A stretch of DNA of 40,978 nt from a virus. The notes beneath the pieces are model-generated. The model did no database searches and was not told where the DNA came from. It saw only the letters and a program-made list of their open reading frames with translations. Numbering within the stretch: position 1 is the first letter of the stretch; each line of letters starts with the position of its first letter. The position numbers and the translations under genes were made by a program. The DNA lies in the IMG/VR virus record IMGVR_UViG_3300032282_001898, positions 1 through 40,978 of that record; one strand, written 5' to 3'. Shown in pieces: positions 1,473 through 34,803 of the stretch.

Positions 1473-3791
1473 TTAATACCAACTTTGACCGTTAGGATTG
1501 GAATTAGCATTTCTATTTCCAAGTGGCCACATTTTTACCCATGCACCAGCAGCAATAGTAGAAGTTCCACCTGGAGCTGCTGAAAATTGTATTCCAGGTG
1601 TTGTATATCCATAAGTGTTTGTAAAATCAAAATGACCTTTAATTCTATAAACAACTGCTTGTGTAGTTGTAATTGCTCCAGTTACAGTGGTTAATCCACC
1701 ACCAGAACCATGAGCAGTTATTACTGTAGATCCTGTAGTTGATATTGTTGTTCTATTAATAATCCAAGATTTATTTGCAATTGTAATTGATACTGAATTA
1801 GAACTGTTTAATCCAAATGATTCAGTATGAGAAGTTGTTCCAGTTGTATCTAATCTAAATTCACACTCTATTTCCCATAAATTAGCCATTGCTGAATCAA
1901 GCAGGGTTCCAGTATTTAATCCAAATATTGATTGAAACGATGCGCTATTTGCTAATGTTGTAGAAGCTTCTTTTCTAAAGTAAATGCAGTTGGCAGCAAC
2001 CCATCCCCATTTAGTTACTCCAGCAGCATTTTCTGAAACTAAAGAATATCCTGGAGCGCCTGGAGCATATAAAGGAAAGTAAAGATCATAATAATTAAAA
2101 CTAATCCTTCTTTCTCCAGTAAGTTTGATACCACCATCAAATGCGAATGGAGTGCTGTACCAACCGTCTAGTGCTGCATCATAAACTGAAGCATTTAATG
2201 CTCCCTGACCAGATGAATTTATATAAAGAGATGCTGCGCTTATATTCCCTGTATCTATATTTCTAAATACAGTTCCTATATTAGATTCAGATAAAATATT
2301 TGAATCAGCAGATATTCTTCCATTGTTAACAGTTAATTGGCCATCAACTGATAAGGGGCCTCTTATTTTTGATTTAGCTGTATGTGTTGTTGGGAAACTA
2401 CTATCTGCAGTTAATTGTGATGCTGAACTAAGTATTATTGTATTTGAAGTTGTTTGCACATAACTGACAGGCAGCCCAAAATCATCAGTAATATAAACTC
2501 TATAATATGCCGCTCCAGGCAATAAGTTCCAGTTAAATGTTATTGTAATATTTGTATCAAATTCACCAGTGTAGTAGGATTTCCAATAATAAGTATCTAC
2601 ATACAGATCTGTATGATTTCCATATGAATCATAAGCAACAATATCGAAATAATAAGAATCATTTTCTCCAGTTAAAGTACCAGTTGTTCCAGAAGTAAAT
2701 GTTGCGCTAAATTTTAAGTCAAGATAACTTAAACCATAAACATCTAACTTACTTGCAGTTAATTGGTTTACTGTTGGGCTAGATGTGTTTTTCCATAGCC
2801 CAGAAGAAGACTCATAAGAAATCAATTGATTGTTTGTTGGCGAATTCAATTGAACATCATGGATCTCATCTAGCTCATATCCATTTTGAACTTTAACAAA
2901 TAGCTTTCCATGTATTCGATGCGCATACTCAACTACTGCGATATAAACTAAATGGCCTGGAGCCTTTGGCTTTGTGGTCTGAAATTCTCCATAGGTAGTA
3001 GTGCTTAGGTATAACTGCTGGCCGTCTGTGTACGCAGAAGTATCTAAATCTTCTACGAACCCAATAATAGTTACATATCCGTTTGAATTATTAGCCAGAT
3101 CTGCAGTCATTACACCCAGCGTCTGAGCACTATGCGCATCAGAATCTGCTTTTGCCATAGTGACTGTAGGCAATTGGCCAATGGCGCCATTGATATAAAC
3201 TGGAGTGCCTTTCAGTAGCGTGCTGCCTGTTGCATTACGCACTTCACATACTAAATGCTGGGCATTTAAATTAGTGGTATTTACTGACAGGGTTACGTTA
3301 GTAGAACCACTTACATTGATACTTCCATCATTAGAAGTTATCGAACTGACACCGCCACTTGTGCCGGATGTTCCACCGCCTCCAAATGATTGGCTGGTAG
3401 GAATTCTTATATGCTTTTCCTTACCGTCAGTAAGTTTGAATAGCATATCTTGGCCATGAACTTTTACGTCTTCTAAGCCAATTGCATCTTTACCATCTTT
3501 ACCAGGCTTACCGGGTTTACCGTCTTTACCTTGTGCACCGTCTTTACCAGGCAATCCATCTTTGCCATCTTTACCAGCAGGCCCTTGTGGGCCAGTATCT
3601 CCTTTAGGGCCTTGGATTCCAGGCTCGCCTTGAGGCCCTTGAGGCCCAATAGGCCCAGGCTCACCCTGTGGGCCAGCAGGCCCTTGCTCTCCATCCTTTG
3701 GCGGCTCAGGAGGAGCTATCTCACGAATGAATCCAGGGAATCCAGGAATCGACTCCCATCCCTCTGGTGGTTTACCAGTGTGAAACTTCAT
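1473..3791 (-). CDS. Collagen-like tail fibre / receptor-binding protein
   Basis: This is a 772-residue fibre. Residues 34-102 form 23 uninterrupted Gly-X-Y triplets, first QGP/PGP-type, then KDG-type, which should fold as a trimeric collagen-like helix. The preceding residues 1-33 (GWESIPGFPGF) are a plausible virion attachment tip. Next come a Gly/Ser linker (135-150), beta-rich repeats, a fibronectin-like segment near 360-470 and a beta-sandwich-like tip over the last 170 residues. The start codon overlaps the upstream stop as TAATG, implying translational coupling. The gene sits in the head cluster between the staple-like protein and the scaffold, far from the other two adhesins at 18942-22961. 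An alternative role is a capsid surface fibre. Confidence 0.8.
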   Translation of the reverse strand: MKFHTGKPPEGWESIPGFPGFIREIAPPEPPKDGEQGPAGPQGEPGPIGPQGPQGEPGIQGPKGDTGPQGPAGKDGKDGLPGKDGAQGKDGKPGKPGKDGKDAIGLEDVKVHGQDMLFKLTDGKEKHIRIPTSQSFGGGGTSGTSGGVSSITSNDGSINVSGSTNVTLSVNTTNLNAQHLVCEVRNATGSTLLKGTPVYINGAIGQLPTVTMAKADSDAHSAQTLGVMTADLANNSNGYVTIIGFVEDLDTSAYTDGQQLYLSTTTYGEFQTTKPKAPGHLVYIAVVEYAHRIHGKLFVKVQNGYELDEIHDVQLNSPTNNQLISYESSSGLWKNTSSPTVNQLTASKLDVYGLSYLDLKFSATFTSGTTGTLTGENDSYYFDIVAYDSYGNHTDLYVDTYYWKSYYTGEFDTNITITFNWNLLPGAAYYRVYITDDFGLPVSYVQTTSNTIILSSASQLTADSSFPTTHTAKSKIRGPLSVDGQLTVNNGRISADSNILSESNIGTVFRNIDTGNISAASLYINSSGQGALNASVYDAALDGWYSTPFAFDGGIKLTGERRISFNYYDLYFPLYAPGAPGYSLVSENAAGVTKWGWVAANCIYFRKEASTTLANSASFQSIFGLNTGTLLDSAMANLWEIECEFRLDTTGTTSHTESFGLNSSNSVSITIANKSWIINRTTISTTGSTVITAHGSGGGLTTVTGAITTTQAVVYRIKGHFDFTNTYGYTTPGIQFSAAPGGTSTIAAGAWVKMWPLGNRNANSNPNGQSWY

Positions 3792-4263: not shown

Positions 4264-5967
4264 TTAGCCTACCTGTAATGGAGTCGGAGAGTTGTAACCA
4301 CTGTACTGACCCATGATATCCATGAGTGCATTCTTTTCTCCGCCAGTTTTAGCTTCAGACAGTGTCTTAGCTGTATCTGCTTGCTGCTGTGCTACAGCTA
4401 CTTGTTCCTTGGCAGCCATGGCCCGTTCTCTAGCGGAGCGGATGATTGCGACCTTGTCATTAGCAATGATCAATTTAGGATCTACTCCTAGCATATCGCT
4501 ATAGCTTTCGACCCATTGGTCAGCATCAAATTTATCCAGCACATCAGCTTTGAACTGGGCCACGGCCCCAAGATTCCCCACAAACCGATCGATAGAATTA
4601 GTACCAATGGCACGCTGTGCTTGAGCCAACATCGAAATAAATTCGACATTCAGCTCCAAGCCTTGCAGCTCTTCTGGAGGTGGCGGCAATATATTTGCCG
4701 TAACCATGTGCTCAAAGGTAGTTTCGATCAGGGGGTCTAGTAGCTCATTGTGCAGGCGCTCTAACACCGGCCCAAGCATAAGCAATTTCTCTTCATGGCG
4801 TTCTGCCACTTCAGTTGCTGTCATGCGCGTATCTGTCGCATTGGCCAGCATCAAGAACAAATCTGCATAAAATGATGATCTGATTCGGTCACGGCAGTCT
4901 TGAATATCAGCAAGTAAATGAGATAAATCTAGTCTCACATCGAATGCCGTTCTAATCCCTGTACCTGCAGAATCAACAAATGTAATTCCACCAGGCAAAG
5001 TCTCAACATCACGATTCTTCATTGATGTCGGAACCTGCAATGGTGGTTTTGTTTGGTAATCGATACCTTGTGCTTTACGCAGTTGCTCATGTTGCAATTG
5101 CTTGATATCACCAAGCGCCTCCATTCCTGGAGAGTTACCATAGATATCACCGCCAGCAATTGACCAACGGGGCGCCAACACAGGGAAATGATTGAATCCA
5201 GATTCGCTTAGGTACTGCTCTTTATCGCCGCTCAATTCAAAGTAAACGCTTTTCCATGGCATATTTTTATTGTCTTTCTTGCGGATATCACGATCTTCTC
5301 TTGGCTCAATAGCATGGATAATTGTAACCCATTTATCTAAGCTGCCACGGTCATATAGATTCTTTACAGTATGGCTAACATTATCCATACCGAATTCTTT
5401 TACTAATTCACCAACTGTCTTTTCAAATTCACGGTATAGCGTACAGACATTGCCCTGGTAATCAGTGGCAATAGCATATTCACCTACTGTAGATGGATAG
5501 TGATGAACTACATTTTTATGATCAGGTAAAACAATAGAAACTGCTGTACCAAATGCGCCAAGTTCTTCATACATACCATGCAATGCACGATAGGTATTAG
5601 ATTTATTGAATATGATCTGCATTCTGCGAGTTACGTCATCCAGCCATAATTTAACTGGTGCATACATATTCAAATCAGGATCAGCAGTTCCTAATCTAAA
5701 CCATGGTCTAGCCGGAGATGTAGCTCCTGCCATCATCCCAGCGCCTAGTACACGCAATGCGCGTGTGCCAGTGTTGTCATATATGTTGTTGTGTCTACGA
5801 TCGCCACGGTTTCTATCTTGCACAAAATACCGGCCAGAGCGAGGTAAGAGATATTGAGTTATCTCTTGCCAATGCGCCCACCATGTGGCTCGCTCATTCT
5901 TGAGCTGCCCCCATCGCGTGAATAAACGATCACGCGAGACAATGTTGCCGGTATTTGGCTTCATCAT
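4264..5967 (-). CDS. Portal (head-tail connector) protein
   Basis: This 567-residue protein is of the T7/BPP-1-type head-tail connector family: twelve copies form the DNA channel at one capsid vertex and dock the terminase. Recognisable stretches are LKNERATWWAHWQEITQYLLPRSG at the N-terminus, ALRVLGAGMMAGATSPARPWF near residue 70, TRALHGMYEELGAFG-type wing sequence around 125-150, and YGNSPGMEALGDIKQLQ near 275. The C-terminal helical barrel region is Ala/Gln-rich. Length fits the family (about 500-570). Translation is coupled to the upstream gene by TAATG at 5967. No truncation is seen. Confidence 0.95.
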   Translation of the reverse strand: MMKPNTGNIVSRDRLFTRWGQLKNERATWWAHWQEITQYLLPRSGRYFVQDRNRGDRRHNNIYDNTGTRALRVLGAGMMAGATSPARPWFRLGTADPDLNMYAPVKLWLDDVTRRMQIIFNKSNTYRALHGMYEELGAFGTAVSIVLPDHKNVVHHYPSTVGEYAIATDYQGNVCTLYREFEKTVGELVKEFGMDNVSHTVKNLYDRGSLDKWVTIIHAIEPREDRDIRKKDNKNMPWKSVYFELSGDKEQYLSESGFNHFPVLAPRWSIAGGDIYGNSPGMEALGDIKQLQHEQLRKAQGIDYQTKPPLQVPTSMKNRDVETLPGGITFVDSAGTGIRTAFDVRLDLSHLLADIQDCRDRIRSSFYADLFLMLANATDTRMTATEVAERHEEKLLMLGPVLERLHNELLDPLIETTFEHMVTANILPPPPEELQGLELNVEFISMLAQAQRAIGTNSIDRFVGNLGAVAQFKADVLDKFDADQWVESYSDMLGVDPKLIIANDKVAIIRSARERAMAAKEQVAVAQQQADTAKTLSEAKTGGEKNALMDIMGQYSGYNSPTPLQVG

Positions 5968-6368
5968 TAGCTACCAAGCAGAGAATTAGAACCTAGTGAT
6001 TTACCGCCGCCGCCACCGCCGCCGCCACCGCCACCACCAGCAGCTCCACCAGTTAGCATGGTAGAAGCAGCGCCACCACCAGAACTACCAGCGGCTCGCA
6101 GAATGCTAGAAACATCTGGTGATTTTTGATTTTGCCTATTGCGAGCAGCATTAGCTTCAGCATCAGCTTTTTTCTGCTGTGTCAGCGCATCAGCTTGAGC
6201 CTGTGCCTGTTGAGCATTAGCTTCCTTCTGCAAGTTCACTTGCTGCCTACCAGTTTCGTATTGCGTATACAAAGCACCAGCAGCTAAACCACCAATCACA
6301 GCTACGGCAGTAGTAGCACCAGCTAAAGCCAACCCACCACCTACCGCAACAGCTACGAATGCAGACAT
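5967..6368 (-). CDS. Membrane-anchored Gly-rich small protein before the portal
   Basis: This 133-residue protein has three parts. Residues 1-35 are strongly hydrophobic and Ala/Gly-rich (one or two membrane or glycine-zipper segments). Residues 40-85 are an Ala/Gln/Lys helix likely to form a coiled coil. The C-terminus holds about a dozen consecutive Gly residues. Proteins of this shape often precede portal genes in podoviruses; their role is unclear, possibly a minor ejected or internal virion component. GGAG precedes the ATG at 6368, two bases after the SET gene ends, and its stop overlaps the portal start. The Gly run is coded by repeated GGC/GGT-type codons. Confidence 0.7.
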   Translation of the reverse strand: MSAFVAVAVGGGLALAGATTAVAVIGGLAAGALYTQYETGRQQVNLQKEANAQQAQAQADALTQQKKADAEANAARNRQNQKSPDVSSILRAAGSSGGGAASTMLTGGAAGGGGGGGGGGGGKSLGSNSLLGS

Positions 6369-6369
6369 T

Positions 6370-7263
6370 TTATTTCTCCAATTGAATTGCTAATTTATAA
6401 CTTTCACGATAATCGATGGTTATCTCATCTCCATCGTGACCACCTAAACATCCATCAATTTTGGTGATGGCTTCTAAATAAATAGTTTCATCTGCACCTA
6501 ATACTGGTTTTGCATTAGGTATTGCAGAATGATTTGTGTACCTACCAAGAGCAGTTCTATTTTTACCTTCTCTTGCTACACCAATTTGTTCGCCAGGCTG
6601 AAAATCTGCAGTAGCAAATATTCCTTTGCCTTCAATGTTTGATTGGCCAACCTTGAACTTGTAGGTGCCAAATGACATTGGAATTACATTATCTGTTCGC
6701 TCTGTTGCAGCTCTAGCCTGTTCTTCTGTAAGGCCAAACTCTTCTAGAAACTTGTTGTAGTCAGCCACATCAGATTGTCTTGGCAATAACTTCTGTCGAT
6801 AGTTGTCGATATGCTCTATCCACATTTCGCTTTTCTGTTTATCTAGAAACATTTCTTCAAGCTTTTCGATATCCGTTTCGTCAGTTGAATATACATTTTG
6901 CCAAACCATATCTTCTTCAATGTACGCAACTTTTCTACCTGGCTTACACACAAACATTGATGGAGCAGTAAGCGTCACTGTATTGCCATCGTCATTGAGT
7001 AAAACAACTTTACCCACCATCAGAATATTCAAATGCTCTTGCTTATGGTGATGGCCAACAACAATGGCGCCAGCAGGCGCGGTAGCCTCACGAATATAAA
7101 TGCCAGGCGCGAATCGATGAAACACTTCAGCCTTCAATTGAGGCTGATCCAATAACGCTTTGGTTAGGTTGTCTACTTTTTCAGGCAAAGTATTCCCTTT
7201 CATTTTCTCGGCAATTTCGGCCAAGACATGATTGGGCGTGGTTAAAGAATTTTCTATTGGCAT
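6370..7263 (-). CDS. Cupin-SET fusion, putative protein-lysine methyltransferase
   Basis: This 297-residue protein has two modules. Residues about 45-130 resemble a cupin, with the metal-binding string GHHHKQEHLNIL followed by a V-GKV turn. Residues about 198-290 carry the hallmarks of a SET methyltransferase: GKGIFA (212-217), GRYTNHSAIPN (about 240-250) and DEITIDY (279-285), with the Asn-His and catalytic-type Tyr present. The linker (130-197) is helical and acidic. SET proteins methylate lysines using S-adenosylmethionine, and here the cofactor pocket looks intact. The gene lies between terminase and portal with AGGAG before its ATG, so a virion or packaging protein is a plausible substrate, but that is inference. 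A 12-base junction motif lies just upstream. Confidence 0.82.
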   Translation of the reverse strand: MPIENSLTTPNHVLAEIAEKMKGNTLPEKVDNLTKALLDQPQLKAEVFHRFAPGIYIREATAPAGAIVVGHHHKQEHLNILMVGKVVLLNDDGNTVTLTAPSMFVCKPGRKVAYIEEDMVWQNVYSTDETDIEKLEEMFLDKQKSEMWIEHIDNYRQKLLPRQSDVADYNKFLEEFGLTEEQARAATERTDNVIPMSFGTYKFKVGQSNIEGKGIFATADFQPGEQIGVAREGKNRTALGRYTNHSAIPNAKPVLGADETIYLEAITKIDGCLGGHDGDEITIDYRESYKLAIQLEK

Positions 7264-7300: not shown

Positions 7301-8830
7301 TCAAAGAATCTTGTACGGATCGTATTCTTTGCGTTGTGTCTTAATACCCATGTCGGCAAGTATCGAACGCTTAGGTGAATCGATAAGGGCCAACACATAG
7401 GCAGATGCAAAGTCTGGTGATCTGCCGATCTTTTCGATGATCTCTTCACGGCTGGCCACCATCAAAGTCTGGCCCGAAAGCTTCCATGTTGGTGCACATA
7501 GATCTGCCAGCAACCGACTGTCTGGCGGCAAAGCGATACCATGATTATTAGCCGGGTCAAGCGCCTCACGCATACGCCACCACAATTCTGAACGTAGATT
7601 CTTGAACCGTAGCCGGCCAGATTTATCCAGACCGAGAGCAGCTTCAGCCACGTTGATGCCGATTACTTGCTGGTTATTTTCATTCAAGAAGTCATACGGG
7701 CTTGAGCCTACGCCGATAACGTCAATATGGATCACGGCCCGGTCACGCATTGCTGCAATAACTAGCCCGGCCACTGTCGGCCCATCAGGAGTTATGTTGC
7801 CAGGATAAACAAGCGGCTCATCGAACCAATTGCCATGGCGCCTAGCGATAATGGTCTGATCCTTACCACCTCGCGCTACGTCTACACCTAATGAATCCAT
7901 CGGATCTAGCTTGTTAGGCTTGACCCATCGAGCCTGAGCTGCCTCCACCCATGCAGTCGGAATCACCTGCCAAGGATCGTCTTCCATGCCGGCAGTGAAA
8001 TCACCATTAAGCATTTGCGACCGTAAAGGCTCAGGAAGCGATTGAAGCTGTGCCATATAGCCAGTACCCATGAGATACGGGTTATCGCTGATCCTAGACG
8101 GTATAAACGTGCGAGACAGTGGTTTGATCTTCTCACCGTTGTGTATGAATTCCTCGCCAGTCTCTACCTCAACGTCTTTCCCATCCACGGTAGCAAACCA
8201 TCGCAGCTCACCAGGTCGTGCCGGGTTAGGGTGTTTTTTGTCAAGCCAAGGCCCAAAGAATGGGATGATCCAGCGGCCATCCGATGTGGTCGGTGGGTTG
8301 AAAGTAAGCAGCGCCTGACACCGCTGGCCAGGCACGGTAGTACGCAACCAGCCCATCAGGAAGCGAACTTGAGACTCGCGCATATTGGCAGCCTCATCGA
8401 ATATCAGTAGGTCGTGTGGCCGGCCTTGGTATTTCTTTTCGTCACCCAGGTTAGGGAACGATCCAAACTCAATTTGCACAGGCACGTTATCTGTTCTGAC
8501 TGTGCGCCAGATATTGTTCTGGCCATTGTACCCAGTGCGTGTGCCAAGCAGTTCAGTGAATCGATCAATCACGCCGGTTAGCTCGGTTCCGTTCAGACGG
8601 AAAATGCCCACCTTACGATGCTGTGTAAGCGATTTACCGCAGGCCAGGTCGGTCTTCCCACCACCGGCTGCACCACCGTAGCCAATGATGTCTGCTTTCG
8701 ATTCATAGGCCATGCTCTGCGGCCCTGGAAGTGGGCGCCAGATCTTTGAGTCAGTGGCCAATAGTGCATCCAATTCCTGCAGCTCAACTGGGGTCAGATA
8801 CTTGAGAAACGATTGATCAAAGGCTTTCAT
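7301..8830 (-). CDS. terL: Terminase large subunit (DNA packaging ATPase/nuclease)
   Basis: This 509-residue packaging motor subunit has both domains. In the ATPase domain, Walker A is GAAGGGKT (53-60), Walker B is LLIFDE (141-146), and the coupling motif is LTFNPP (175-180). The C-terminal nuclease domain begins near 312 with GVDVARGGKD, where D317 is the expected first metal ligand, followed by VIHIDVIGVG near 375. It cuts concatemeric DNA and drives it through the portal. The start overlaps the preceding 68-codon gene as TAATG. All motifs are intact and the length is normal. Confidence 0.96.
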   Translation of the reverse strand: MKAFDQSFLKYLTPVELQELDALLATDSKIWRPLPGPQSMAYESKADIIGYGGAAGGGKTDLACGKSLTQHRKVGIFRLNGTELTGVIDRFTELLGTRTGYNGQNNIWRTVRTDNVPVQIEFGSFPNLGDEKKYQGRPHDLLIFDEAANMRESQVRFLMGWLRTTVPGQRCQALLTFNPPTTSDGRWIIPFFGPWLDKKHPNPARPGELRWFATVDGKDVEVETGEEFIHNGEKIKPLSRTFIPSRISDNPYLMGTGYMAQLQSLPEPLRSQMLNGDFTAGMEDDPWQVIPTAWVEAAQARWVKPNKLDPMDSLGVDVARGGKDQTIIARRHGNWFDEPLVYPGNITPDGPTVAGLVIAAMRDRAVIHIDVIGVGSSPYDFLNENNQQVIGINVAEAALGLDKSGRLRFKNLRSELWWRMREALDPANNHGIALPPDSRLLADLCAPTWKLSGQTLMVASREEIIEKIGRSPDFASAYVLALIDSPKRSILADMGIKTQRKEYDPYKIL

Positions 8831-23018: not shown

Positions 23019-26000
23019 TTACCTGTACCCAGTAAGCAATGCGGCAGGGTTTTCAGTTTTGCCTTCAGCTAATGCCTCAACACCAGAAATAGTTCTGTTG
23101 ATTTGGGCAGACGGCAGGCCAGTAAAATCCCCAAGTACATTTATACCAGTTCTAATAAAGGCACTATCAAATTCTCCCTGGTGAGCTTGAACAGCAAATG
23201 CACCAACGTCAGCAAATGGTCGCACCCCGGCTGGGCCTTGGTAATCTCGGTTGCCGCCTTCTGCGCCAAGTACAGTCTTGAATGCAAAAGACAATTCACG
23301 CAGAACGATAAACATCCCCATCATGTAAGACAGAGTTTCAGAGGTTAGATTTTTAGCAATCTGACCCCAATCCCATTCATCGTCATCTCCAGCTCCACCA
23401 CCGCCAGGAACTAGGGCAGCCTTCAATGCATAGTTGAGAATCACAGGCGCCATGAATAACATCAAATATTGAGCTGTTAATTTAGCTTTACCTTTTGTTG
23501 TCATGCCAACTGAGACAGCCAAATTCAACTGGGTATTCATGTAGGAATAGAACACAGTGAACAACTTCTGCCAGGCGCCGCCACGCTCAACTTTAGCTAG
23601 ATCTTTGAGTAGACCGCTTCCCTGAGAGTCTGTAACTGCCTGGTCCGCCAAGGCAATAGCGCGTGACTCATCAATTGCTCCATCTTCATTGACAGAGATA
23701 TTTCCTTCAGAAACCGCTTTCTCATAAGCGCCAATCCAGGTTGGAATATCTACAACTCTCTGAACCTGCATCATTAAGAAATAGGTTCCCAACTGTATAG
23801 TCTTTTTGGTTTTAGATTCACCACGAACTTTATTTCTAAGTTCGTTCAATTCTCTAAATTGAGTTTTGCTACGGGCCGCCATGAAACTAGATTTTTCATT
23901 GACCATTTTCACAGCGCCACGGAGATCACCCAGAGTTTTAGAAATGCCTTTACCAGCCCACTTAGGCCCAAGACGAACAATAGAGCTGGCATAGCCTGTA
24001 GCATTCAGGATTGCGGATAGAACATTGAATCCCAAACCTGCAGCAGATACGCCCTGACGAACAAATCCAATTGCTTTGTCACCAAATTCCATACCTGGGC
24101 GTTCACCAATGGCCACATCCTTGACCCACTCCCTCAATTGTTTATGAGCTTCAGGCCCATAAGTTGTAGCAATGGCATCGTACAATGAACCAGATCTAAG
24201 GATCTTATTAGCGTCAATAAGGAACTCATGCCAAGACAAGTCATGTATAACTTCATTTATACCGCGATATAAGCCAGTTAGGCTGTACATCAGTGGCCGG
24301 CCTTTCACTTCCTTGACACGCTGTTTAGTAAAGCTCCTACGAGTTGTGGCGCTGGTAAATGCACTTTGCATTTGGCGCTTGGCTTCCTCTGCAGCTTCAA
24401 ACTGACCAGCAGCCTGGCTGGCTTTTGGATCGAATACTACTGGATAGTATCCACCATCAAGGTTAATTGATTCGCCATCAGCGGTCATAATGCTGAAAGG
24501 TGCAGGATCAATCCAAGTTGGCTCTTTGCCATAAACCCTGCGTTCTTTTGCAGCAATCAGTGGCCGATAAGTTTCAAAGTATTTCCAGATCTGTTGAACA
24601 GCAAACCATTCTGCTTTAGTCAAAGATTGCAATAATGGGATAACCTGTTCTGGTGACCAGTTCTCCCCGCCAAGCAAACGCTGTCTATTAGATTCATTAC
24701 CCCAGTTAAGGGCGATAGTAAGCAATGATTCACGGTTAAAGTGACGGCCAACAGAATCAAAATAAATGCCCTTGCCGCCCATATTTCCTAAAGATAAAAC
24801 AGGCGCCAATATTTCAGTCAGATCCTCAGTAGCCTTTGCTCTCATATCTGTTTCTAAATTAGCCCGTTCATTAGCAGGTCTAATCAGATATTCCCAAACC
24901 GGGCCACCATCCTTACCGCCATCAAAAATTCTGGCAATGATTGCAGCTTTAATATGCTCAGAGAAAAACCCTCTGACATCTTGAATGAACTCGCCCATTT
25001 TAGTGGTCGCAGTTCTAGCAGTATGTTTGCGATTTCCGGCGTTATCTTTAATGCTTTGAACCATCTCATCCCTAGCTTGCTTATATGCAATAAGCTTTGC
25101 ATTAGTGATTAATGTTTGAGCATTTCTACCGACTGCTTCAATCTGCTTAATAGAATCAACTAAATCTTTAAACTGATTTACAGTCAAATTCATGTAATTA
25201 GTTCTTAGCGCAGCATTCTGAATATCTTCAGGAATCTCAAGCTCAAGACCAGAATTTTGTTGTGCTTCAAGCCAAGCCTTTAAATCTAACTGACGCTTCA
25301 GATCTTTCTTGGTTGCATCATGTAAATCAAACCTTTCTAAAATAGAATCGATTTGATCTGCAGCATCAGCGCCAATTTTCTTTCTATTGTTGTCATTGGT
25401 AACGCGCCTTAAATAAGTCACGTTCTTTTTAACTTCATCTAATATATCAATAGATTCAGTTGCAAGTTGATGCTGTAGTAATTGGCTTTGTTTAGCAGCA
25501 ATTGCTTTTTCAGATTCACCTTTTTTCAAATGAGTGAATACCATAGCTGCAGCCTTTGATTCAGCTACAGAGAATTTTCTGGTATTGATATCAGAAAGTC
25601 TTACATTAGACAGAAGTTGTTGAGCTGCAAGTTTGGCGGCCTGGAGCATAACCCTTACAGGCTGTGTTGCTTTATTTAAGAAGCGCAGCTCTGCAGCTAC
25701 AAACCTAGCCCTGGCTTCATTGTGAAGCGCACGTTCTACGTCAGCCTCAATTTGCTTATGATCTAAAAGGTTTCCATATTCAGAAGCCATTCTGATATCA
25801 GTACCTTGTTGAACGGCTTCTTTTAATGTTGGAGTTGAAATCAATTCCTGAATCAGTTGATCTCCAGAAGAGTACCCAAGCATTTCTGCAACAACATCTG
25901 GATGTAATCCTTCATCAGAAGTCATGCCACGGAGTTTAGACAAGTCTGGTCTAGCCAACATTGTTTCTGGATACATTTCCTTAATAGCGTCAGAATTTAA

Positions 26001-29000
26001 TTTATGACCTTTAAGTACTTTAATTTCCTCTCCAGTTTCTGGATCAGTCATTTCGCCATTTTTAATCCAGCGAATTGCCTTATAAATTGGTTTATCCTTT
26101 ATCTGCTTTTCTACTTCTGCAGCAACTTGTTTACGGGTTTCTTTAACCTGAGCCTGAAGCTTTTTGAGATATCTACTTCTAGCATTCTGTACCCACTTCA
26201 ATTGACTAATACTAGATTTAGTCAGATTAGCAATAGATGTTTCACGGGCATCTGCAATGAGCTTTTGATACTCATTCCAACGATCGTCATCCATGCCAGA
26301 TTCTTCTTGAGTCATAAACATAGGCATCATGTTTCTGACAACTTCTGCCTGACTAATTGATTCCTCTGAAGCAATCATTCGATCCATTACCTGGCGAACT
26401 TCTCCAGTTAGAATTGGCAGGTCTTTACCAAATTGCTTTTTATAGACTTCATTCAATTCATTTTTAATCGATAGATAAGCTCTGCGAATCCATCGAGAAA
26501 AGTCATCGAATAGCTTTTGCATTCCAACGCTTGGAGCTTTCCCTTCTGAAATATAGATTTCATAGTTGTAAGCAAATTGCTCATGGTATGGCCGCTGGTC
26601 ATCAAGTGACATTGAGTTCCAGGTTTCCACGTTTGGAATGCCAAACCAATCTAGAACTGTCTGAAAATCTTTTTTAATTTCTTCTGGTGAATTTACATCA
26701 GATGCCATATCAGCATATGCGGCAAGGAAGAAGTGCCCAGTCTCATGGAAGAAAGTAGACGAATCTGCTTCTTGCGTCAGAAGCGTAGTAAATGTAGCAG
26801 GATCAAACCCACCTCTTGGGCCGCCAGTCTTTTGGAATAATGGCTGTGGCTTTTTAAGCTCATCCATCATTTCCGGCGTAAGGTCTACTATCATTTGCTG
26901 CTGTGGGCCAGCATTCAAATGTCTCATTTTTGTTTCTGTAGAAACATGGTTATTATACTTTTGTGGATGCAATGGCAAACCAATATCTGCTAAATATGGC
27001 TTAGTTCCAAATTTACCAACAAGCTTCTTAACCACAATTGGCAGTATATTGTTGTAGTAGCCAAGCATCCCTTCACCACCAACTTCAAGCTGCTCTCCAT
27101 CTAAATTGTATTGCTTCCCAAGTACAGGTTCTGTTGCCAATAATCGAGCTGCAACTTCTTTACCAAAGATACCTGGAATGTCATCTTTACTAACATCTTT
27201 CTGGTACAAGACTTCAAATCTTCCAGAGTTCCAAGCACGCACAACGTGAGTTTCAGAATTGTACGAAATGTACTCAACTGATTGACGCAGATTAAACCGT
27301 TCTGCAGCCTGCTTTCCGTTAATGAAAGCAATCTTCTGGAACCCGTGGTCAGCCGCATACCGCATAATTCTTTTAACGGCAAGTGCGGACCATGATTGTG
27401 TGTCAGTAACAAATGGTCCGTGTGGAACTGGAGCCTTTGCAGAATTTGCTTTTGGATTTCTTAACAGCCATTTTTTATCAAGCTCATTAATCTGATGCTT
27501 TACTTGAACGATCTGATTATGAATTTTTGTTAAGTACTCTCCATCTTGAGCCAACACAGGATCATTAACAGCTTCATCATATTGCTTAACTAATTGATAT
27601 CTGCGAGATCTGAGTAACGCATATTCTGCAGCAAAATCTACTGGCGCACGGAATCCTACATCTCTACCTTCTTGACCCCAGTCGCTTTGAACTTCAGTAA
27701 CTACAAGTGTTTTAGATCCATCTTCATTAGCTTTGGTTTCTAAACGAACATGACACAGTACGTTGTACATATCGACCCAATGGTCGTGCGAATATGCCAA
27801 TTCTTTGCTGGTTCCAAAATTCCTATATTGATCTGATTGCATGGCCTGCTCTATTGTTGAATAGACCATTGTTGTATCAGTAATAGGATCTAGTACATTT
27901 GCACCATTGTCATAGACAAGTTCATATGATCCAGGGAAACGATCAGACTCAATAATCTGTGGTTTATTAACAGGCAAGTGCATTATTAATTCTTTGTATT
28001 CAGGCAGGCCAAAAGACCAGTTTTTGAACACAGAACTTTTCAATGACTGAATTGCTTGATGATCTTCAGGCGTCAATTGAAGATCCATAAAGTCTACAAA
28101 TTCATCATTTGTTTTATCAGTGAATGCCCACTCACCATGCTCTAAAGCAGCCTCAATGCCATAAGGCTCTAGGATGTTATTTACTGCTAATTCAATATCA
28201 TCAGTAGTTAGAGTTTCTAGAATCTGAACGCCATTAGAATCTAGATAATTGACAATCTCTTCTTTTGTGATTCCTTTACGATCTCCAAGGAATTCTACTA
28301 AGTCGCTGGCTTCTATTTCTTCTTGCTTAACTTTCCCTTTAAGCATATTCAACCAGTCTTGGGCAGACTGTTTCGCAACTTTTGAATTGGAAACAGTCTC
28401 CTTTAAGACAGAATAAAATAACGGAGCTTGCTCTAAGATTCCTGTTCCGGGGCCGGATTCTGGGATTGATTCTGCTGCTGCTCTTTCTGTAGCCTTTTGT
28501 ACTTCTCTATCCACTCTTTCGGTACTTTGTTCCCGAAACTTATTGAGGATCCTCGACTCAGGGGATGCCACTCCGGCCACGGGTCTCCCGGCTTGATTGA
28601 CCTTCTGTTCATAGTTGTAATCCTCTTGAGATGGGAATGCTGAATATGCCACACCATCGATAACTTCAATTGATGTGTCATTAATAGTCTGAGCTATAAG
28701 ATCTGCCAAGTCAACAGTTGCCACTCCTGTTTCTTCTGGATCATGCAATATATTCATTACTCCATCAGTCACAGTAAATCCAACAACAAGCTTTTTACCG
28801 TTGTTTTCAAGCGGCCAAAGTTTATCGTAAAGTGCTGATATTTCTTGTAATCCATATCCTTCTGGCAATTTAAGAGATACCAGACCATTCTCAAAAGAAT
28901 TGGCTACCTTGTCTTTCATAAGGGCAACCATTCCCTTCTGGCGTAAAACAAATCCTAAAGCCTTAGCAATTGGAATTGCCAACTCTTGCTTATCTATTTG

Positions 29001-32000
29001 GAGGGTCATTGATGGGTTTGTTTTTCCTTCATACCCACCTATTTGCATCACAAAATCGCCAGTAGTTGAAAACTCTTTTAGAATTTTAGGGATTACTTCT
29101 CTGGCTTCTGCAAGACTAATATTTAATTTATCTTCTTCAGAAAGAGCATCCCATTTTGCAGACCTAACTACATCATCTGGATTTGGTGCAACTTCAAAAA
29201 TAATATTTGCAGCTTTGTCAGCAACCTTACCTTTTGGTTTTTGCTGATCAATAGTAGCTTGCGCCAACCCTTTATAGGTACGACCAACATTTTTATTTGT
29301 TTTAACCTTAGACCAACTAGGATCAGTAATGCCTCCGGCTAATGCAAATATTTGGCTCAGTGCATCTGCCTGAGTTGCAATAGCTCCAGATTGCCATTGT
29401 TCCCAGATAGCTTTTACTTGAGGCTTCAATGCCTGCTTCTGAGGGCCTTCAAATAATCCTCTAACAGCTTCCCATGTAATAGATTGCATTTCACGAGGAA
29501 GAATTTTTCTTTTTGCAGCCGCCCGTCTATAAGCTTCTAGGTATATTGGATATGTTCCCCTTAATCCAGTAACTCCAGAAGATGCAGCACCGGCACCACC
29601 AAATGCACGGGTAACTGGCTCATCTCCACCAGCGAATGGTTGCATAAGAGCTGCAGCTACTGCATGGGTATCGATAGTAGCAAATCCTAATTTAGACTTA
29701 GGATCATAAATATTGTTGTAAAAGTTTCTTACTTTATGCTCTGAACCTATTTGATAAAAGACATTTTCTGCGCGGCCATCAAGAAGTACAGAAATAGCTT
29801 TAGCCATAACTCCGAATGTTTTCCATGCGTTCTTAGCAGGAACACCAGCATCGGTTAATGCAACACCTGCGGCTCCACCTTCTGGAGTAAGGATGTTGTA
29901 ATCACGAATATTATGTGTTTCATCAAATACTCGAACCCAGCGAGCAACTACTTCTGGATCTAAATTAATTATGTCTCCAAGTCTTTTATTTCTGACCTGA
30001 TCCATAACAGCCCTATCGGCTGAATTTTTATTAATCTGGTCTTCAATTTTCTTTGCAAGAATTTCTTTTTCAGCTTCATTCTTAGGCTTTTGAGATTGTA
30101 ATTTTTGAAGATTTCTTTCCCCAACTGATAGGATAGTTTCTGCAGTTTTATCCATATCTGCATCCCACATAAAATCCCTCATTCCAAAAATAATATCTGC
30201 TACACGTTCAGCAGAACTTACATTTTGGAACCAATCGTTTTGTGGGGATAGAACTGCAATAGCTGCAGCAGCTTGCATTTCAGATATACCATATCTTTCT
30301 GCCCAAGCCTCGGCCATTCTACGGCCACCGTCATACCATTGCTTTGCTCTCTTCCTTTGAGCTGGCTGCATTTGGTCATGCAAGAACAATAGGTTTTCTA
30401 CTACATGATCAATGAATAAATTCACATCAGTAGTTGGGTTCCCAGTATTTGCACTTGGTGGGAAATTAGGTAGATTCCTCAAAGCATTTACATTTTTTTC
30501 TAATGTTTTTAAATCGGATAATGTAGTAGCAAAATCAATAGTTAATATATTTTCAATTGCATATTCTGGGGCAATTGATTTAATTGTTGGGATGCGGGTA
30601 CTTAATGATTGGTATAGGTAATTAGACTTCTCACCATATTTTGGATTTTTTACCAAAACCAATGGTCCGATTTGCAGCATTTCATCGCCGCCAATAACTG
30701 GCTCCAATGATTTTCTATTGTAGAAATATGAATGGCGCTCAGGATCAAACCCAACTTGAATCCAGTCTGGATCGTTCAAATACTGCTGGGCCAGATTAAA
30801 TGCGTCTTCAGTTGGTGTTTTTAGCAAGTTACCATGAATAACAGCATACGGTGTTTTTGGCCCACCTTGAGCTATCTTGATACCTTTAGTATCTGATGTG
30901 CCAAAAGTGATTGGCCCTGTTAAATGAACCGTAGATTCATGTGCGATAGTTCTATTGTTTTCATCATGGATAGTTGGCGCCCATACATTATGGTTTGTAT
31001 AAGCATTGATATCTAACCTTGAAGATACTGGAGTTCCATTTTCATAATTTACAATTTTGCCAACCTTATCTACCTGAGTGCCTTTTAATGCACCTTTCAT
31101 TTCTTCATGGGTAGCAGGGGTTGGTATAGATTCATATGGCAATACAGGCTTAACTTTATTTACCAGAGTCTCATATTCTTCTCTGGTAATTTCACCATTT
31201 TGCAGCTTTACAGCAGCAGCTTTTAACTGCTCATTTCTTTGAGCTACATTTCGTTTAACAAATTCTTGCTGATTAAATTGACCGCCTCTGTTTTGCAGAG
31301 AGCCAGTCATAATTTTATATTCGTATCGATTGTAGAATTCTTCAGGCATCTGTTTAAATTTTGAAGCATTTTGAGCTACAAATAATTTAACTAAATTAGC
31401 CTGACCTTTAGCTTCTTCACTGGTGTATTTACCAGTACTCATAAGCTGGTCGTAAAATCTAGTTTCTACGGCATTTGCAGAATCATAGAAAGCTTTATCA
31501 GTTGCGCGTTTTTCTTCAAGATTAGTAGCTGCTTCAGTCAGCAATTTATTTTTAATTGCATCTACCTGAACACTTTCTGCAGTAGATGGAAGATCTGAAT
31601 CAATTCTAATGTGTGGCGCCAGTGCATTGCCTAAATCTGTACCGGCAATTCTTGCCATGTATGCAGAAGTATTAAATGTGATATCGCTGCCAGGGGTAGA
31701 GTTATCTAACTGGCTAACTACTTCTGGAAGCATTTGGCCAAGTTCTTCCCTGGTCACTCCCATTTGATTCAATACATTTACGAATTGATCTGACTCAACA
31801 TACATTGTTTCTACATTAGTATCTTGAGTAATGTTCTGAACGTGATCCTCATAACCTTTTGGATCTAATTTTTTAGTTTCAGATTCAGAAGCAGCATTAG
31901 TTATGTTCTGAATAAACTCAGCCTGGCGCCTAGCTCCTTTACTTTGGCTCTCAAGTCTAGATCCAATGTAACTCAAAGTGCCTGCTGCACTGCCCATGAC

Positions 32001-33092
32001 TCCACCAGAAACAGTTCCCATAAGCATGGCGTCATCAACGTCAGTCATTAATGGTTTATCTAGTGCCCAGTTCTGCCACATTTGTTCTTGTACAGATTGT
32101 GGGAATTCTTCTAGTAAACCTTCTGAAATACCTGATCCAACAACTGATTTAATAAATCCTTGTTTCATTCCAGAAGCAACTGCAGCTTCAGTACCACCTC
32201 TGGCAATCATGGTATCGATATCTGCCAAGCCAAATGCCTCAGCAAATTTACCACCATAAACACTAAGGCCCCCAGTAAATATACCTGCAGTTAGTGCAGC
32301 TGCACCTTGGCCTAAAGTAGTTGTTTTATCTGGAGTCTGATATCTAATGCTTTCTTCAGTTTGACCAGCAGTAAGAGCTCCTTCACCTATCGCTCCACCA
32401 ATTACAGCAGATAATGCAGGAAATTTAGTTATGAGCGCTTTAGCTACACCACCTCCAGCAAACATTGCAGGAAGAGATTCGCCAATTGTAGTTACAGCAA
32501 TACTAGGATTTTTAACTACTGTTGCAGCTTTTTCACCTATACCTTTTGATTCTTGATATTTTTGTTGAGCTTCTTGTGTCTTTGTAGAATATTGAGTTCC
32601 TAAAAAATTTTGCAATTTTTGTAAATCTAATCCGTGCTCTTCAAGCCATTTACCTGGTCTTCCTCCAGTTGGGATGTCAACCAATCCAACTACAGCCTGT
32701 GGTATTCCAAGCATACCCTTAACAAACATAGTTGATGAATCATCTACAAATCTAGTAAATCCAGTTTCTGTTTTATGTAGATTTTTAATATCATTCTGAG
32801 ATATTGCTGCAGATGTTGGATCTTGTAATCTGTTTGCTAATACTGGAGCTTCTTTAACTATTTTGTCTGCATCAATAGATGATGCAGCAGCTTGCTGCTT
32901 AATATCATCCCTATACTCGCGTACCGCATCTGTGGGCACACTCATCATTCTAGATAGAGTCTGATCCTCTGCTGCCTGAGCAGGATTTACAGTTGCAGCA
33001 GAAGAATAGTTCTGTCTAATTAAAGCCGACTTTCTTCTTCCAGTTTCTAGAAATAACTGTACTTCTGGATCGTTTTCAAAATTATCGGCCAT
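23019..33092 (-). CDS. Giant multi-domain virion-associated (polyvalent-type) protein, 3357 aa
   Basis: The start is ATG 33092, overlapping the previous gene by 11 bases; an upstream start at 33149 lies wholly inside that gene. Seen in order (rough residues): Ala/Gly-rich hydrophobic segments (200-390); a TPYAVIHGN...DPERHSYFY module (710-820); a region with WYDGGRRMAEAWAERYG, LSPQNDW and IDTHAVAAAL (900-1215, DUF7178-like); VTEVQSDWGQEGRDVGF, IAFINGKQAAERF and GYYNNILP (1770-2010); a HETGH metallopeptidase-type site (about 2115-2119); long helices (2180-2700); a GKGIYFDSVGRHF-to-RLGPKWAG region (2770-3040, LPD38-like); and two hydrophobic spans (about 3215 and 3254). Such proteins are carried in podovirus heads and thought to enter the host with DNA. 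A role in ejection, host conflict and early takeover is inferred. Confidence 0.85.
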   Translation of the reverse strand: MADNFENDPEVQLFLETGRRKSALIRQNYSSAATVNPAQAAEDQTLSRMMSVPTDAVREYRDDIKQQAAASSIDADKIVKEAPVLANRLQDPTSAAISQNDIKNLHKTETGFTRFVDDSSTMFVKGMLGIPQAVVGLVDIPTGGRPGKWLEEHGLDLQKLQNFLGTQYSTKTQEAQQKYQESKGIGEKAATVVKNPSIAVTTIGESLPAMFAGGGVAKALITKFPALSAVIGGAIGEGALTAGQTEESIRYQTPDKTTTLGQGAAALTAGIFTGGLSVYGGKFAEAFGLADIDTMIARGGTEAAVASGMKQGFIKSVVGSGISEGLLEEFPQSVQEQMWQNWALDKPLMTDVDDAMLMGTVSGGVMGSAAGTLSYIGSRLESQSKGARRQAEFIQNITNAASESETKKLDPKGYEDHVQNITQDTNVETMYVESDQFVNVLNQMGVTREELGQMLPEVVSQLDNSTPGSDITFNTSAYMARIAGTDLGNALAPHIRIDSDLPSTAESVQVDAIKNKLLTEAATNLEEKRATDKAFYDSANAVETRFYDQLMSTGKYTSEEAKGQANLVKLFVAQNASKFKQMPEEFYNRYEYKIMTGSLQNRGGQFNQQEFVKRNVAQRNEQLKAAAVKLQNGEITREEYETLVNKVKPVLPYESIPTPATHEEMKGALKGTQVDKVGKIVNYENGTPVSSRLDINAYTNHNVWAPTIHDENNRTIAHESTVHLTGPITFGTSDTKGIKIAQGGPKTPYAVIHGNLLKTPTEDAFNLAQQYLNDPDWIQVGFDPERHSYFYNRKSLEPVIGGDEMLQIGPLVLVKNPKYGEKSNYLYQSLSTRIPTIKSIAPEYAIENILTIDFATTLSDLKTLEKNVNALRNLPNFPPSANTGNPTTDVNLFIDHVVENLLFLHDQMQPAQRKRAKQWYDGGRRMAEAWAERYGISEMQAAAAIAVLSPQNDWFQNVSSAERVADIIFGMRDFMWDADMDKTAETILSVGERNLQKLQSQKPKNEAEKEILAKKIEDQINKNSADRAVMDQVRNKRLGDIINLDPEVVARWVRVFDETHNIRDYNILTPEGGAAGVALTDAGVPAKNAWKTFGVMAKAISVLLDGRAENVFYQIGSEHKVRNFYNNIYDPKSKLGFATIDTHAVAAALMQPFAGGDEPVTRAFGGAGAASSGVTGLRGTYPIYLEAYRRAAAKRKILPREMQSITWEAVRGLFEGPQKQALKPQVKAIWEQWQSGAIATQADALSQIFALAGGITDPSWSKVKTNKNVGRTYKGLAQATIDQQKPKGKVADKAANIIFEVAPNPDDVVRSAKWDALSEEDKLNISLAEAREVIPKILKEFSTTGDFVMQIGGYEGKTNPSMTLQIDKQELAIPIAKALGFVLRQKGMVALMKDKVANSFENGLVSLKLPEGYGLQEISALYDKLWPLENNGKKLVVGFTVTDGVMNILHDPEETGVATVDLADLIAQTINDTSIEVIDGVAYSAFPSQEDYNYEQKVNQAGRPVAGVASPESRILNKFREQSTERVDREVQKATERAAAESIPESGPGTGILEQAPLFYSVLKETVSNSKVAKQSAQDWLNMLKGKVKQEEIEASDLVEFLGDRKGITKEEIVNYLDSNGVQILETLTTDDIELAVNNILEPYGIEAALEHGEWAFTDKTNDEFVDFMDLQLTPEDHQAIQSLKSSVFKNWSFGLPEYKELIMHLPVNKPQIIESDRFPGSYELVYDNGANVLDPITDTTMVYSTIEQAMQSDQYRNFGTSKELAYSHDHWVDMYNVLCHVRLETKANEDGSKTLVVTEVQSDWGQEGRDVGFRAPVDFAAEYALLRSRRYQLVKQYDEAVNDPVLAQDGEYLTKIHNQIVQVKHQINELDKKWLLRNPKANSAKAPVPHGPFVTDTQSWSALAVKRIMRYAADHGFQKIAFINGKQAAERFNLRQSVEYISYNSETHVVRAWNSGRFEVLYQKDVSKDDIPGIFGKEVAARLLATEPVLGKQYNLDGEQLEVGGEGMLGYYNNILPIVVKKLVGKFGTKPYLADIGLPLHPQKYNNHVSTETKMRHLNAGPQQQMIVDLTPEMMDELKKPQPLFQKTGGPRGGFDPATFTTLLTQEADSSTFFHETGHFFLAAYADMASDVNSPEEIKKDFQTVLDWFGIPNVETWNSMSLDDQRPYHEQFAYNYEIYISEGKAPSVGMQKLFDDFSRWIRRAYLSIKNELNEVYKKQFGKDLPILTGEVRQVMDRMIASEESISQAEVVRNMMPMFMTQEESGMDDDRWNEYQKLIADARETSIANLTKSSISQLKWVQNARSRYLKKLQAQVKETRKQVAAEVEKQIKDKPIYKAIRWIKNGEMTDPETGEEIKVLKGHKLNSDAIKEMYPETMLARPDLSKLRGMTSDEGLHPDVVAEMLGYSSGDQLIQELISTPTLKEAVQQGTDIRMASEYGNLLDHKQIEADVERALHNEARARFVAAELRFLNKATQPVRVMLQAAKLAAQQLLSNVRLSDINTRKFSVAESKAAAMVFTHLKKGESEKAIAAKQSQLLQHQLATESIDILDEVKKNVTYLRRVTNDNNRKKIGADAADQIDSILERFDLHDATKKDLKRQLDLKAWLEAQQNSGLELEIPEDIQNAALRTNYMNLTVNQFKDLVDSIKQIEAVGRNAQTLITNAKLIAYKQARDEMVQSIKDNAGNRKHTARTATTKMGEFIQDVRGFFSEHIKAAIIARIFDGGKDGGPVWEYLIRPANERANLETDMRAKATEDLTEILAPVLSLGNMGGKGIYFDSVGRHFNRESLLTIALNWGNESNRQRLLGGENWSPEQVIPLLQSLTKAEWFAVQQIWKYFETYRPLIAAKERRVYGKEPTWIDPAPFSIMTADGESINLDGGYYPVVFDPKASQAAGQFEAAEEAKRQMQSAFTSATTRRSFTKQRVKEVKGRPLMYSLTGLYRGINEVIHDLSWHEFLIDANKILRSGSLYDAIATTYGPEAHKQLREWVKDVAIGERPGMEFGDKAIGFVRQGVSAAGLGFNVLSAILNATGYASSIVRLGPKWAGKGISKTLGDLRGAVKMVNEKSSFMAARSKTQFRELNELRNKVRGESKTKKTIQLGTYFLMMQVQRVVDIPTWIGAYEKAVSEGNISVNEDGAIDESRAIALADQAVTDSQGSGLLKDLAKVERGGAWQKLFTVFYSYMNTQLNLAVSVGMTTKGKAKLTAQYLMLFMAPVILNYALKAALVPGGGGAGDDDEWDWGQIAKNLTSETLSYMMGMFIVLRELSFAFKTVLGAEGGNRDYQGPAGVRPFADVGAFAVQAHQGEFDSAFIRTGINVLGDFTGLPSAQINRTISGVEALAEGKTENPAALLTGYR

Positions 33093-34803
33093 AGGTATCC
33101 CAATAACGGAATTGAATGTCTCTTTCAGTTGGATTCGGATTGCCTTCAATAATTAAGGCTTGCTTAATCTTTTCACGCATATCCGAGGAAACTTGTGTCT
33201 TCAACATTGGAACTGTAGAAGTTGATGATGTTTCGATGCCAAATATGGTATTTCTAAATTTTACATTTTTAGTAAATAGTTCATTTAACTTTGATGACAG
33301 TTCTTCATTATTAAATGGCTTACCATTAACTTGTTGCTGTTCAAGAATATATCTCTGAGCATATTCAACAACAGTATTATAATTTTCTTTCTCATTAGTT
33401 GTTGAATTATCTCTCACACTAATACCAACTTGCGTAAGTTTGTTATTTAACAATGAAGCAAATTGTTTTGGAATATTTCCGGGGTCATTAATCTTTTTTC
33501 TTCCTTGCATTACTTGACCCATCATCCAATCTCGATCTTTCATGTCAAGCTTAGAGCTTAATTTATAAAGCTGTACGTCTGACATTTTCAATACATCCAT
33601 GTCACTATTATCGCCATAATGAGCATAAATATTGAACTTAACATTTTGGTCAGTAACACCAGGATTATTGAATATTGCACCTAGTGAGTCATTATGGCCA
33701 GTATTAGACAATGCTTGATAAGCAATAGGATTAGATTTTTTCCAATCTAAAACAGTCATACCAGGATTTTTGTATGCATCATCTTGTGCTTGACCAAGTA
33801 TTGATGCAATATTTTTATTTTGATTTTCATCTCTAACACTTTTGTCATGCTCTAAAGATTGTTTAACAGACTTATAAAATTCAGATACATTTTTTATACC
33901 AGCAATTGATTTTCCATTATCTACAGCATCATTTAATGCTTTTAGTTGAGCAGAATATCCACCAGGCAATTGAGAAAGCTGTCTATATATTTTTACTTCG
34001 TCTGTAGTTTTTGAATGACTTTCAACCAGATTTTTTACTTGGTCAATCATATCTGGCCGGCCTTTCATTATTTCTTCTTCGTGAGAATCTAAAAAGCTCT
34101 TGGCTCTAGCATTATTATCATCAGAAACAAATCTCTGAATAACCATAGCATCTGCTTCTGCCAGATTCTTGGCAACCAATTGTTGTGCCATTTCTTTGTC
34201 ATAGCCTTTCAATTGAGCATAACTTAATGATTCTGCAATAACAGTATTCCTTGCTTCATTATATGGGCCAGTAGGTTTGCCATCCTGGTCTTTAGCATCA
34301 AAATATGGAGCGTTCAAAACCATTGACCCGGCAGCTTTATCTTTTCTTAGCTGTGAAGACCCCTCATGCCATACTTGAGCCTGAGCCAAAGAATGACCTT
34401 TAATTTGATCGAACTGTGTAATTAATCTTCTCTTTGCCAATTCAGAGAACATTTGACGCTGAACTGGATTTTGTAATTTTTCACTAGATTTCTTAATTGC
34501 ATCTTCGGAATTTTTTAGTGCATATCCTTCTGCATTAACTGCAGTTTCTCCAACCTGCGATTGATAGTCTCTAGAGATTTGAGTAAGAGCATCCAATGCA
34601 TCTGCATCAGCAGATTTTACTGCTGCATCATCTACGTTATTTTGATAATGCATTAATCCCTGTGCAAAATCATTCATCCCCTTAGCAAAATCTTGTATTT
34701 GCTTTGGAGCATAATTTTCCATTGGCCTGACTTGTGGAGCTGTATATGCGCCTGGAGAAGTTACATTTTCCTCAACTTGCGGTGTCATTAATGGAACTTG
34801 CAT
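33082..34803 (-). CDS. Internal virion protein (T7 gp15-like position)
   Basis: This 573-residue protein is mostly helical and charged, without spans or signal. It starts MQVPLMTPQVEENVTSPGAY; the region ENYAPKQIQDFAKGMNDFAQ is followed by repeated Ala/Lys/Asp helices, and TDEVKIYRQLSQLPGG lies mid-way. It sits between the smaller internal virion protein and the giant protein, where T7-like phages place their ejected core proteins, so it is likely part of the channel across the cell envelope. AGGA precedes the ATG. The end overlaps the giant gene start. Assignment is by length, composition and order. Confidence 0.72.
   Translation of the reverse strand: MQVPLMTPQVEENVTSPGAYTAPQVRPMENYAPKQIQDFAKGMNDFAQGLMHYQNNVDDAAVKSADADALDALTQISRDYQSQVGETAVNAEGYALKNSEDAIKKSSEKLQNPVQRQMFSELAKRRLITQFDQIKGHSLAQAQVWHEGSSQLRKDKAAGSMVLNAPYFDAKDQDGKPTGPYNEARNTVIAESLSYAQLKGYDKEMAQQLVAKNLAEADAMVIQRFVSDDNNARAKSFLDSHEEEIMKGRPDMIDQVKNLVESHSKTTDEVKIYRQLSQLPGGYSAQLKALNDAVDNGKSIAGIKNVSEFYKSVKQSLEHDKSVRDENQNKNIASILGQAQDDAYKNPGMTVLDWKKSNPIAYQALSNTGHNDSLGAIFNNPGVTDQNVKFNIYAHYGDNSDMDVLKMSDVQLYKLSSKLDMKDRDWMMGQVMQGRKKINDPGNIPKQFASLLNNKLTQVGISVRDNSTTNEKENYNTVVEYAQRYILEQQQVNGKPFNNEELSSKLNELFTKNVKFRNTIFGIETSSTSTVPMLKTQVSSDMREKIKQALIIEGNPNPTERDIQFRYWDTYGR

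Follow-up and report, generated by a model that had tools for sequence, protein, structure and literature searches.

The cupin-SET gene and its product

The window analysed here is the whole stretch of 40,978 nucleotides of the IMG/VR virus record IMGVR_UViG_3300032282_001898. Positions 6370-7263 of its minus strand hold an ATG-started open reading frame without internal stops, encoding a protein of 297 amino acids in which a cupin domain is joined to a SET domain. The initial annotation described a single intact fusion gene lying between the genes for the large terminase subunit and the portal. Gene and fusion are as described, and so is the terminase side, but a 133-amino-acid ORF separates the fusion gene from the portal gene, giving the order TerL, cupin-SET, 133-aa ORF and portal. 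The features of the locus are as follows.

4264-5967, minus strand: portal (Head-tail_con, PF12236; Pfam), context
5967-6368, minus strand: partner gene, 133 aa, starting MSAFVAVAVGGG, with a hydrophobic Gly/Ala leader and a Gly-rich C-terminus STMLTG...KSLGSNSLLG (ORF and sequence)
6370-7263, minus strand: cupin-SET fusion protein, 297 aa (ORF, Pfam, PHROG, AlphaFold2, Foldseek)
6376-6379, minus strand: GGAG, a Shine-Dalgarno-like stretch within the final cupin-SET codons, at a position suited to the partner start at 6368 (sequence)
6394-6669, minus strand: minimal SET domain, residues about 199-290, with GxG, GRYxNH, P-N and E-x-T-x-D-Y conserved and without a SET-I insert (Pfam, conservation, Foldseek, profile search)
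6703-6870, minus strand: helical linker, residues about 132-187, joining cupin and SET (AlphaFold2 secondary structure)
6886-7128, minus strand: cupin domain, residues about 46-126, with GHHHKQEH at residues 70-77 (AlphaFold2 strands, Foldseek to TM1459 and other cupins, phrog_12032, phrog_24280)
7301-8830, minus strand: terminase large subunit (PHROG), context

Elsewhere in the window, positions 1473-3791 encode a 772-aa protein with collagen-like GPxG repeats close to its N-terminus, probably a tail fibre, and the late region contains a very large ORF (23019-33149, 3376 aa, TTG start) with a HETGHF metallopeptidase-like motif.

The match of the 297-aa protein to Pfam SET (5.5e-5) exceeds the gathering cut-off and that to Cupin_2 (0.049) is below it; 45 of 49 aligned relatives match Pfam SET at E<=1e-3, the best at 1.8e-10. 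PHROG 34170 matches across residues 32-290 (2e-67), and the N-terminal half matches the cupin families phrog_12032 and phrog_24280, which carry tail-fibre labels. A search of NCBIfam gave nothing informative. With the single protein as query, phmmer against the PDB found weak cupin matches only; the SET half was found by profile search, in which it aligned with the PDB sequences of MLL, EZH2, SETD8 and vSET. The AlphaFold2 model, built with the 49-sequence alignment as input, has a mean pLDDT of 92.7 and a pTM of 0.89, with pLDDT below 50 for residues 1-7 only. Foldseek matched it both to solved cupins (TM1459 and others) and to vSET (3kma), so the SET fold that the initial annotation proposed to look for by structure prediction is seen in the model.

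The SET signature is near-invariant. Among 80 distinct fusions G212, G214, R236, T237, G240, R241, N244, E280 and Y285 are conserved in 100%, and H245, N250 and T282 in 99%. These residues make up the N-terminal GxG motif of the SAM site (G212 and G214 in 80/80), the RxxNHxxxPN motif, which aligns with MLL and vSET and here reads GRY.NH...PN (N244 in 80/80, H245 and N250 in 79/80 each), and the C-terminal E-x-T-x-D-Y, with E280 and the catalytic tyrosine Y285 in 80/80. All the strings quoted in the initial annotation are found, GKGIFA at residues 212-217, GRYTNHSAIPN at 240-250 and DEITIDY at 279-285 besides the cupin motif, and the tyrosine whose loss it had named as counter-evidence is retained in every one of these fusions. 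The SET-I or middle region comprises about 10 profile positions in the profile search, compared with about 45 residues in MLL. Since SET enzymes differ in the length of this region and the family is not defined by it, membership of PF00856 stands. As the signature has changed so little across the 80 fusions, the SET half looks catalytic from its sequence. Most known SET enzymes are lysine methyltransferases.

The N-terminal domain has the double-stranded beta-helix fold of cupins (AlphaFold2, Foldseek). It had been called metal-binding, and the motif-1 histidines H71, H73 and H77 are indeed all there in the phmmer alignment to TM1459. However, no motif-2 histidine was seen by eye in the window protein, which thus falls short of the four-ligand pattern HxH(x)3H/E plus motif-2 histidine, and H73 is replaced by glutamine in 55% of relatives (80 distinct fusions). 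Because the metal motif varies, the cupin looks more like a binding module. A role as ligand sensor or coupled oxidase finds no support; cupin homologs without a SET domain keep the same downstream partner, and recognition or docking therefore fits better.

Among phage records 56 match the cupin-SET protein, eight of them with one place spanning at least 80% of the query; in the other 48 the matched stretch is the cupin part only. An IMG/VR scan with the single protein gave only two relatives, while a pattern scan with the fusion alignment as query, followed by confirmation with tblastn, gave 543 loci. All of the best 80 among these 543 are fusions, and the others may include cupin-only relatives. 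The view that SET domains are uncommon in phage structural regions is hard to keep with such numbers. The open-access literature searched contained no account of such a fusion protein in phages. Two cultured phages that carry the fusion are Rhodoferax phage P26218 and Pseudoalteromonas phage PH1. At one locus, in Paraburkholderia ferrariae (L101:6665-8112), cupin and SET are encoded by two separate neighbouring genes.

The gene directly downstream

In the window the partner gene starts 1 nt past the cupin-SET stop. Its product contains five lysines and has no significant match to named ejection families in Pfam, PHROG or NCBIfam; the shared leader and the gene position suggest that it is probably ejected. 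The same arrangement recurs elsewhere. In nearly all of the 102 loci first examined the next gene on the same strand starts a few nucleotides from the cupin(-SET) stop and encodes a protein whose N-terminus is a hydrophobic leader rich in Gly and Ala, MSGVATAIVGSAVIGG being typical. The partner start lies between -27 and +5 relative to this stop in all scored loci but two, and cupin-SET genes usually overlap their partner or are separated from it by 1-5 nt. The leader of the fusion partners follows the pattern MS(G/A/S)-(V/I)-A-x-A, with starts of the type MS[GAS] or MTG; the L082 partner, which has a GTG start, begins MSA. Residue 2 is serine in 100 of 103 fusion loci and threonine in two.

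The leader is common to partner bodies (residues 41 onward) that form 19 clusters with no BLAST similarity between them. The partners comprise P22 gp7-like ejection proteins, small portal-side proteins and J-like tail-tip proteins, with matches to phrog_598 ('DNA ejection', 1.6e-23), phrog_21132 ('DNA ejection', 3e-60) and the J tail fibre phrog_31; those of the window type are short (110-133 aa). In the P22-like gene order the cupin(-SET) gene follows the tail adaptor genes and stands right before the 'DNA ejection' gene or its positional equivalent. At L041, L045, L074, L075, L077 and L090 a J-like central tail fibre protein with an MSG-type hydrophobic leader follows cupin-SET, and the pairing is thus not confined to short-tailed phages but extends to apparently long-tailed ones. 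At L003 (7199-7982) cupin-SET and its partner are followed by a GNAT gene and a second small Gly-rich protein, a gene order repeated at L004. The two small proteins share the C-terminal motif GGSTMLTG...LGK.xLLG, and the one such protein of the window, at 5967-6368, resembles this motif.

Portal, terminase and capsid types vary between loci. The initial annotation had suggested searching for the fusion beside terL and portal in other phages; what is found there as the constant neighbour is the downstream ejection/pilot-type gene, neither terminase nor portal nor capsid, and this holds across podoviral and J-type tail contexts.

The partners contain on average 2.4 lysines per 100 aa. Many of them have lysines, often at positions 21-28, but no lysine is conserved among the scored partners, and the 300-aa partner at L080, where the SET gene is intact, has none at all. 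An internal partner lysine can therefore not be the general target. If the partner is the substrate at L080, its N-terminus is the sole primary amine left.

Residue 3 of the partner

Cupin homologs for comparison, most of them without SET, were collected by two further IMG/VR scans. Residue 3 of the partner is G, A or S in 76/76 unique fusion pairs compared with 1/88 cupin-only pairs, where it is nearly always W, F, V or Y; Fisher p-values for this split ignore the relatedness of the phages and cannot be trusted as they stand. The split is not forced by overlapping codons, since it persists when only non-overlapping starts are counted, with a small residue 3 in 32 fusion pairs and no exception (32/0) and in none of the 25 cupin-only pairs (0/25). 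Two loci, L229 and L209, break the rule. L293, at first taken as another exception, is itself a fusion (GCYTNHS). At a Comamonadaceae locus (L102:6854-7420) SET stands alone; next come a 95-aa ORF and then a pilot-like protein starting MSLGISAAGW, which is off the residue-3 rule.

On the cupin tree two changes of SET state are supported (four on the best tree), and residue 3 shifts in the same way; with so few changes, physical linkage between the leader and the gene upstream could explain part of the correlation. On a tree of the partner bodies, with the first 40 residues removed, 7/7 supported independent contrasts agree (sign test p 0.016), and each trait changes 13 times on the best tree. 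Clearly similar partner bodies are for instance found at L069, with SET and the start MSGIATAIVGG, and at L153, without SET and with MSWVAAAVAGA.

As a control, partner bodies were searched without their leader, using four closer bodies as query; this gave 80 loci, some on contigs shared with the earlier sets. Residue 3 is small in 23/23 loci with a fusion upstream and bulky in 26/27 with a cupin-only gene upstream, and either signature is seen in 0/30 without an upstream cupin. Fourteen no-cupin loci were inspected individually, and the slot is usually filled by another enzyme-like gene. Pfam identifies a GNAT at L236, L238, L254, L271 and L285 (of ten slot genes tested; L236 partly under the cut-offs), and at L258 (1285-1875) an Asp/Asn beta-hydroxylase-like gene (PF05118, 1.3e-8) stands right before an ejection-type gene starting MPLGWVAGA. 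The slot genes of L231, L267, L283 and L303, among the ten tested, have no informative Pfam match.

The L238 gene matches both GNAT (3e-7) and DUF2824 of P22 gp14 (4e-5, just under the cut-off), and in cobaviruses a GNAT adjoining internal virion proteins has been equated with T7 gp13 (PMC6775973). Comparison of T7 gp13, P22 gp14 and T7 gp7 with the slot GNATs by hhalign and blastp gave no significant match; the link of these GNATs to gp13 and gp14 is therefore drawn from PMC6775973 and L238 only, and a wider rule for the slot is a lead and not a result. Tentatively, and with less than even probability, the N-terminal leaders of ejection proteins might be tags, each matched by a co-translated upstream enzyme (cupin, cupin-SET, GNAT or Asp/Asn hydroxylase), with leader and enzyme swapped together among phages. 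This would amount to an N-terminal modification code for membrane-piercing virion proteins, of which cupin-SET would be the methyl version.

Proposed function and known systems

The fusion, its SET residues, the adjacency, the leader and the residue-3 pattern are observed with high confidence, and the link between cupin-SET and the leader downstream is a new one. That SET acts on a virion protein, as first suggested, is plausible, and the candidate is the downstream ejection/pilot-type protein, which we regard with moderate confidence as substrate or client; confidence is lower for alpha-methylation of its N-terminus. Taken as a whole, the reading that cupin-SET is an enzyme dedicated to modifying this protein at its N-terminus, most simply an alpha-N-methyltransferase, is given about an even chance of being right. 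Serine at residue 2 would let methionine aminopeptidase remove Met1, and together Ser2, the lysine-free L080 partner and the residue-3 switch make alpha-N-methylation of Ser2, with the leader held by the cupin, the simplest model. Translational coupling would then yield cupin-SET and partner together, the cupin would recognise the hydrophobic leader (MS-G/A-V/I-A-x-A...), and removal of the initiator methionine would expose Ser2. The SET domain would move methyl groups from SAM onto the partner N-terminus, most simply the Ser2 alpha-amine, before the partner is packed into the virion. Once modified, the membrane-active leader may be ready to be packaged or, later on, to insert into the host envelope.

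Some points weigh against this reading. Known SET enzymes mostly act on lysine, and the window's own partner is short, offers five lysines and matches no named ejection family. A SET enzyme acting on an N-terminal amine by alpha-N-methylation would be the Rubisco small subunit methyltransferase. According to a paper of 2014, however, the enzyme for the small subunit was at that time still unidentified (PMC3991674). In P22 the host cleaves off the first 20 residues of gp7 (PMC4992974), and without these residues the burst is still about 60% (PMC8402733); in some phages, then, the leader may be dispensable.

Appreciably less probable, and in our view doubtful, is that cupin(-SET) is mainly an assembly chaperone shielding the ejection-protein leader from the cell's own membranes, with SET either doing no more than aiding binding or methylating lysines that lie in the partner body or in a third virion protein. 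Retention of the partner by cupin-only homologs, conservation of SET residues and leader, and the lysines of many partners all agree with this. However, the near-invariant catalytic residues favour catalysis, the L080 partner excludes an internal partner lysine at that locus, and the residue-3 switch points to the N-terminus. The lysine of a capsid, portal or terminase protein that the initial annotation proposed as target is unlikely, although the gene sits in the morphogenesis region and mass spectrometry has found methyl-lysine on capsid and portal proteins of Cellulophaga phages (PMC13288928): these protein types differ among the loci, and the J-type loci of the L041 group likewise keep the downstream neighbour only.

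It is just as improbable that the leader is simply linked to the upstream gene, its first codons being transferred with cupin or cupin-SET by recombination within the partner gene and without functional coupling. The few SET gains and losses on the cupin tree and the mosaic partner bodies are in line with such linkage, but it does not account for one position splitting by residue size, and the leader persists although the sequences are diverse and the bodies attached to it differ widely. Within the BA3 group, L131 (SET, MSGVATA) and BA3 (no SET, MSVVAAA) resemble each other in cupin and partner, yet differ at residue 3. A host protein as target during takeover, with a precedent in the phiKMV-like acetyltransferase Rac and its modification of RNA polymerase (PMC7552054), is very unlikely, as neither the tight coupling with a late structural gene nor the covariation of the leader is explained by it.

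Closest to the window protein are PHROG 34170, which is the same cupin-SET family, and database entries of uncultured phages named 'SET domain containing protein', for example A0A6J5PTS6 with a structure match over 115 columns; these are without assigned function or partner. The proteins of PHROG 12032/24280 ('short tail fiber'/'tail fiber adhesin'; Thalassomonas BA3, Vibrio VPMS1, VvAW1) have a cupin homologous to that of the window and occupy the same slot before the ejection gene, but they lack SET and residue 3 of their partner is V, W, F or Y. Their tail-fibre label is annotation only. For ORF43 of Ralstonia phiAP1, a cupin-type protein with the same kind of label, a paper states that the fibre role was not validated (PMC8703784).

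The small viral SET protein vSET (PBCV-1 A612L; PDB 1n3j, 3kma) shares the motifs of the window protein, with a TM-score of 0.63 over the target, 24% identity and a profile match to the SET half at E 1.4e-5. It differs in that it acts on Lys27 of histone H3, comes from an algal virus and has no cupin, and we know of no gene coupling of vSET to a substrate.

T7 gp13 and P22 gp14 stand in the same slot as cupin-SET, directly before gp14 and gp7, but are acetyltransferase-like and neither SET nor cupin, and their partners begin MCW or MLY and not MSG. For the gene that precedes the ejection gene in short-tailed phages, be it T7 gp13, P22 gp14 or the cupin 'tail fibres', no settled function was found. 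If the slot holds a modifying enzyme with a matching leader on its substrate, this question could be addressed directly by N-terminal mass spectrometry on virions already available and on gene-13 or gene-14 mutants. With cupin-SET there would then be a protein methyltransferase of viral origin whose substrate and site are predicted; the reading would also account for the many environmental phages that bear a SET domain in their structural region.
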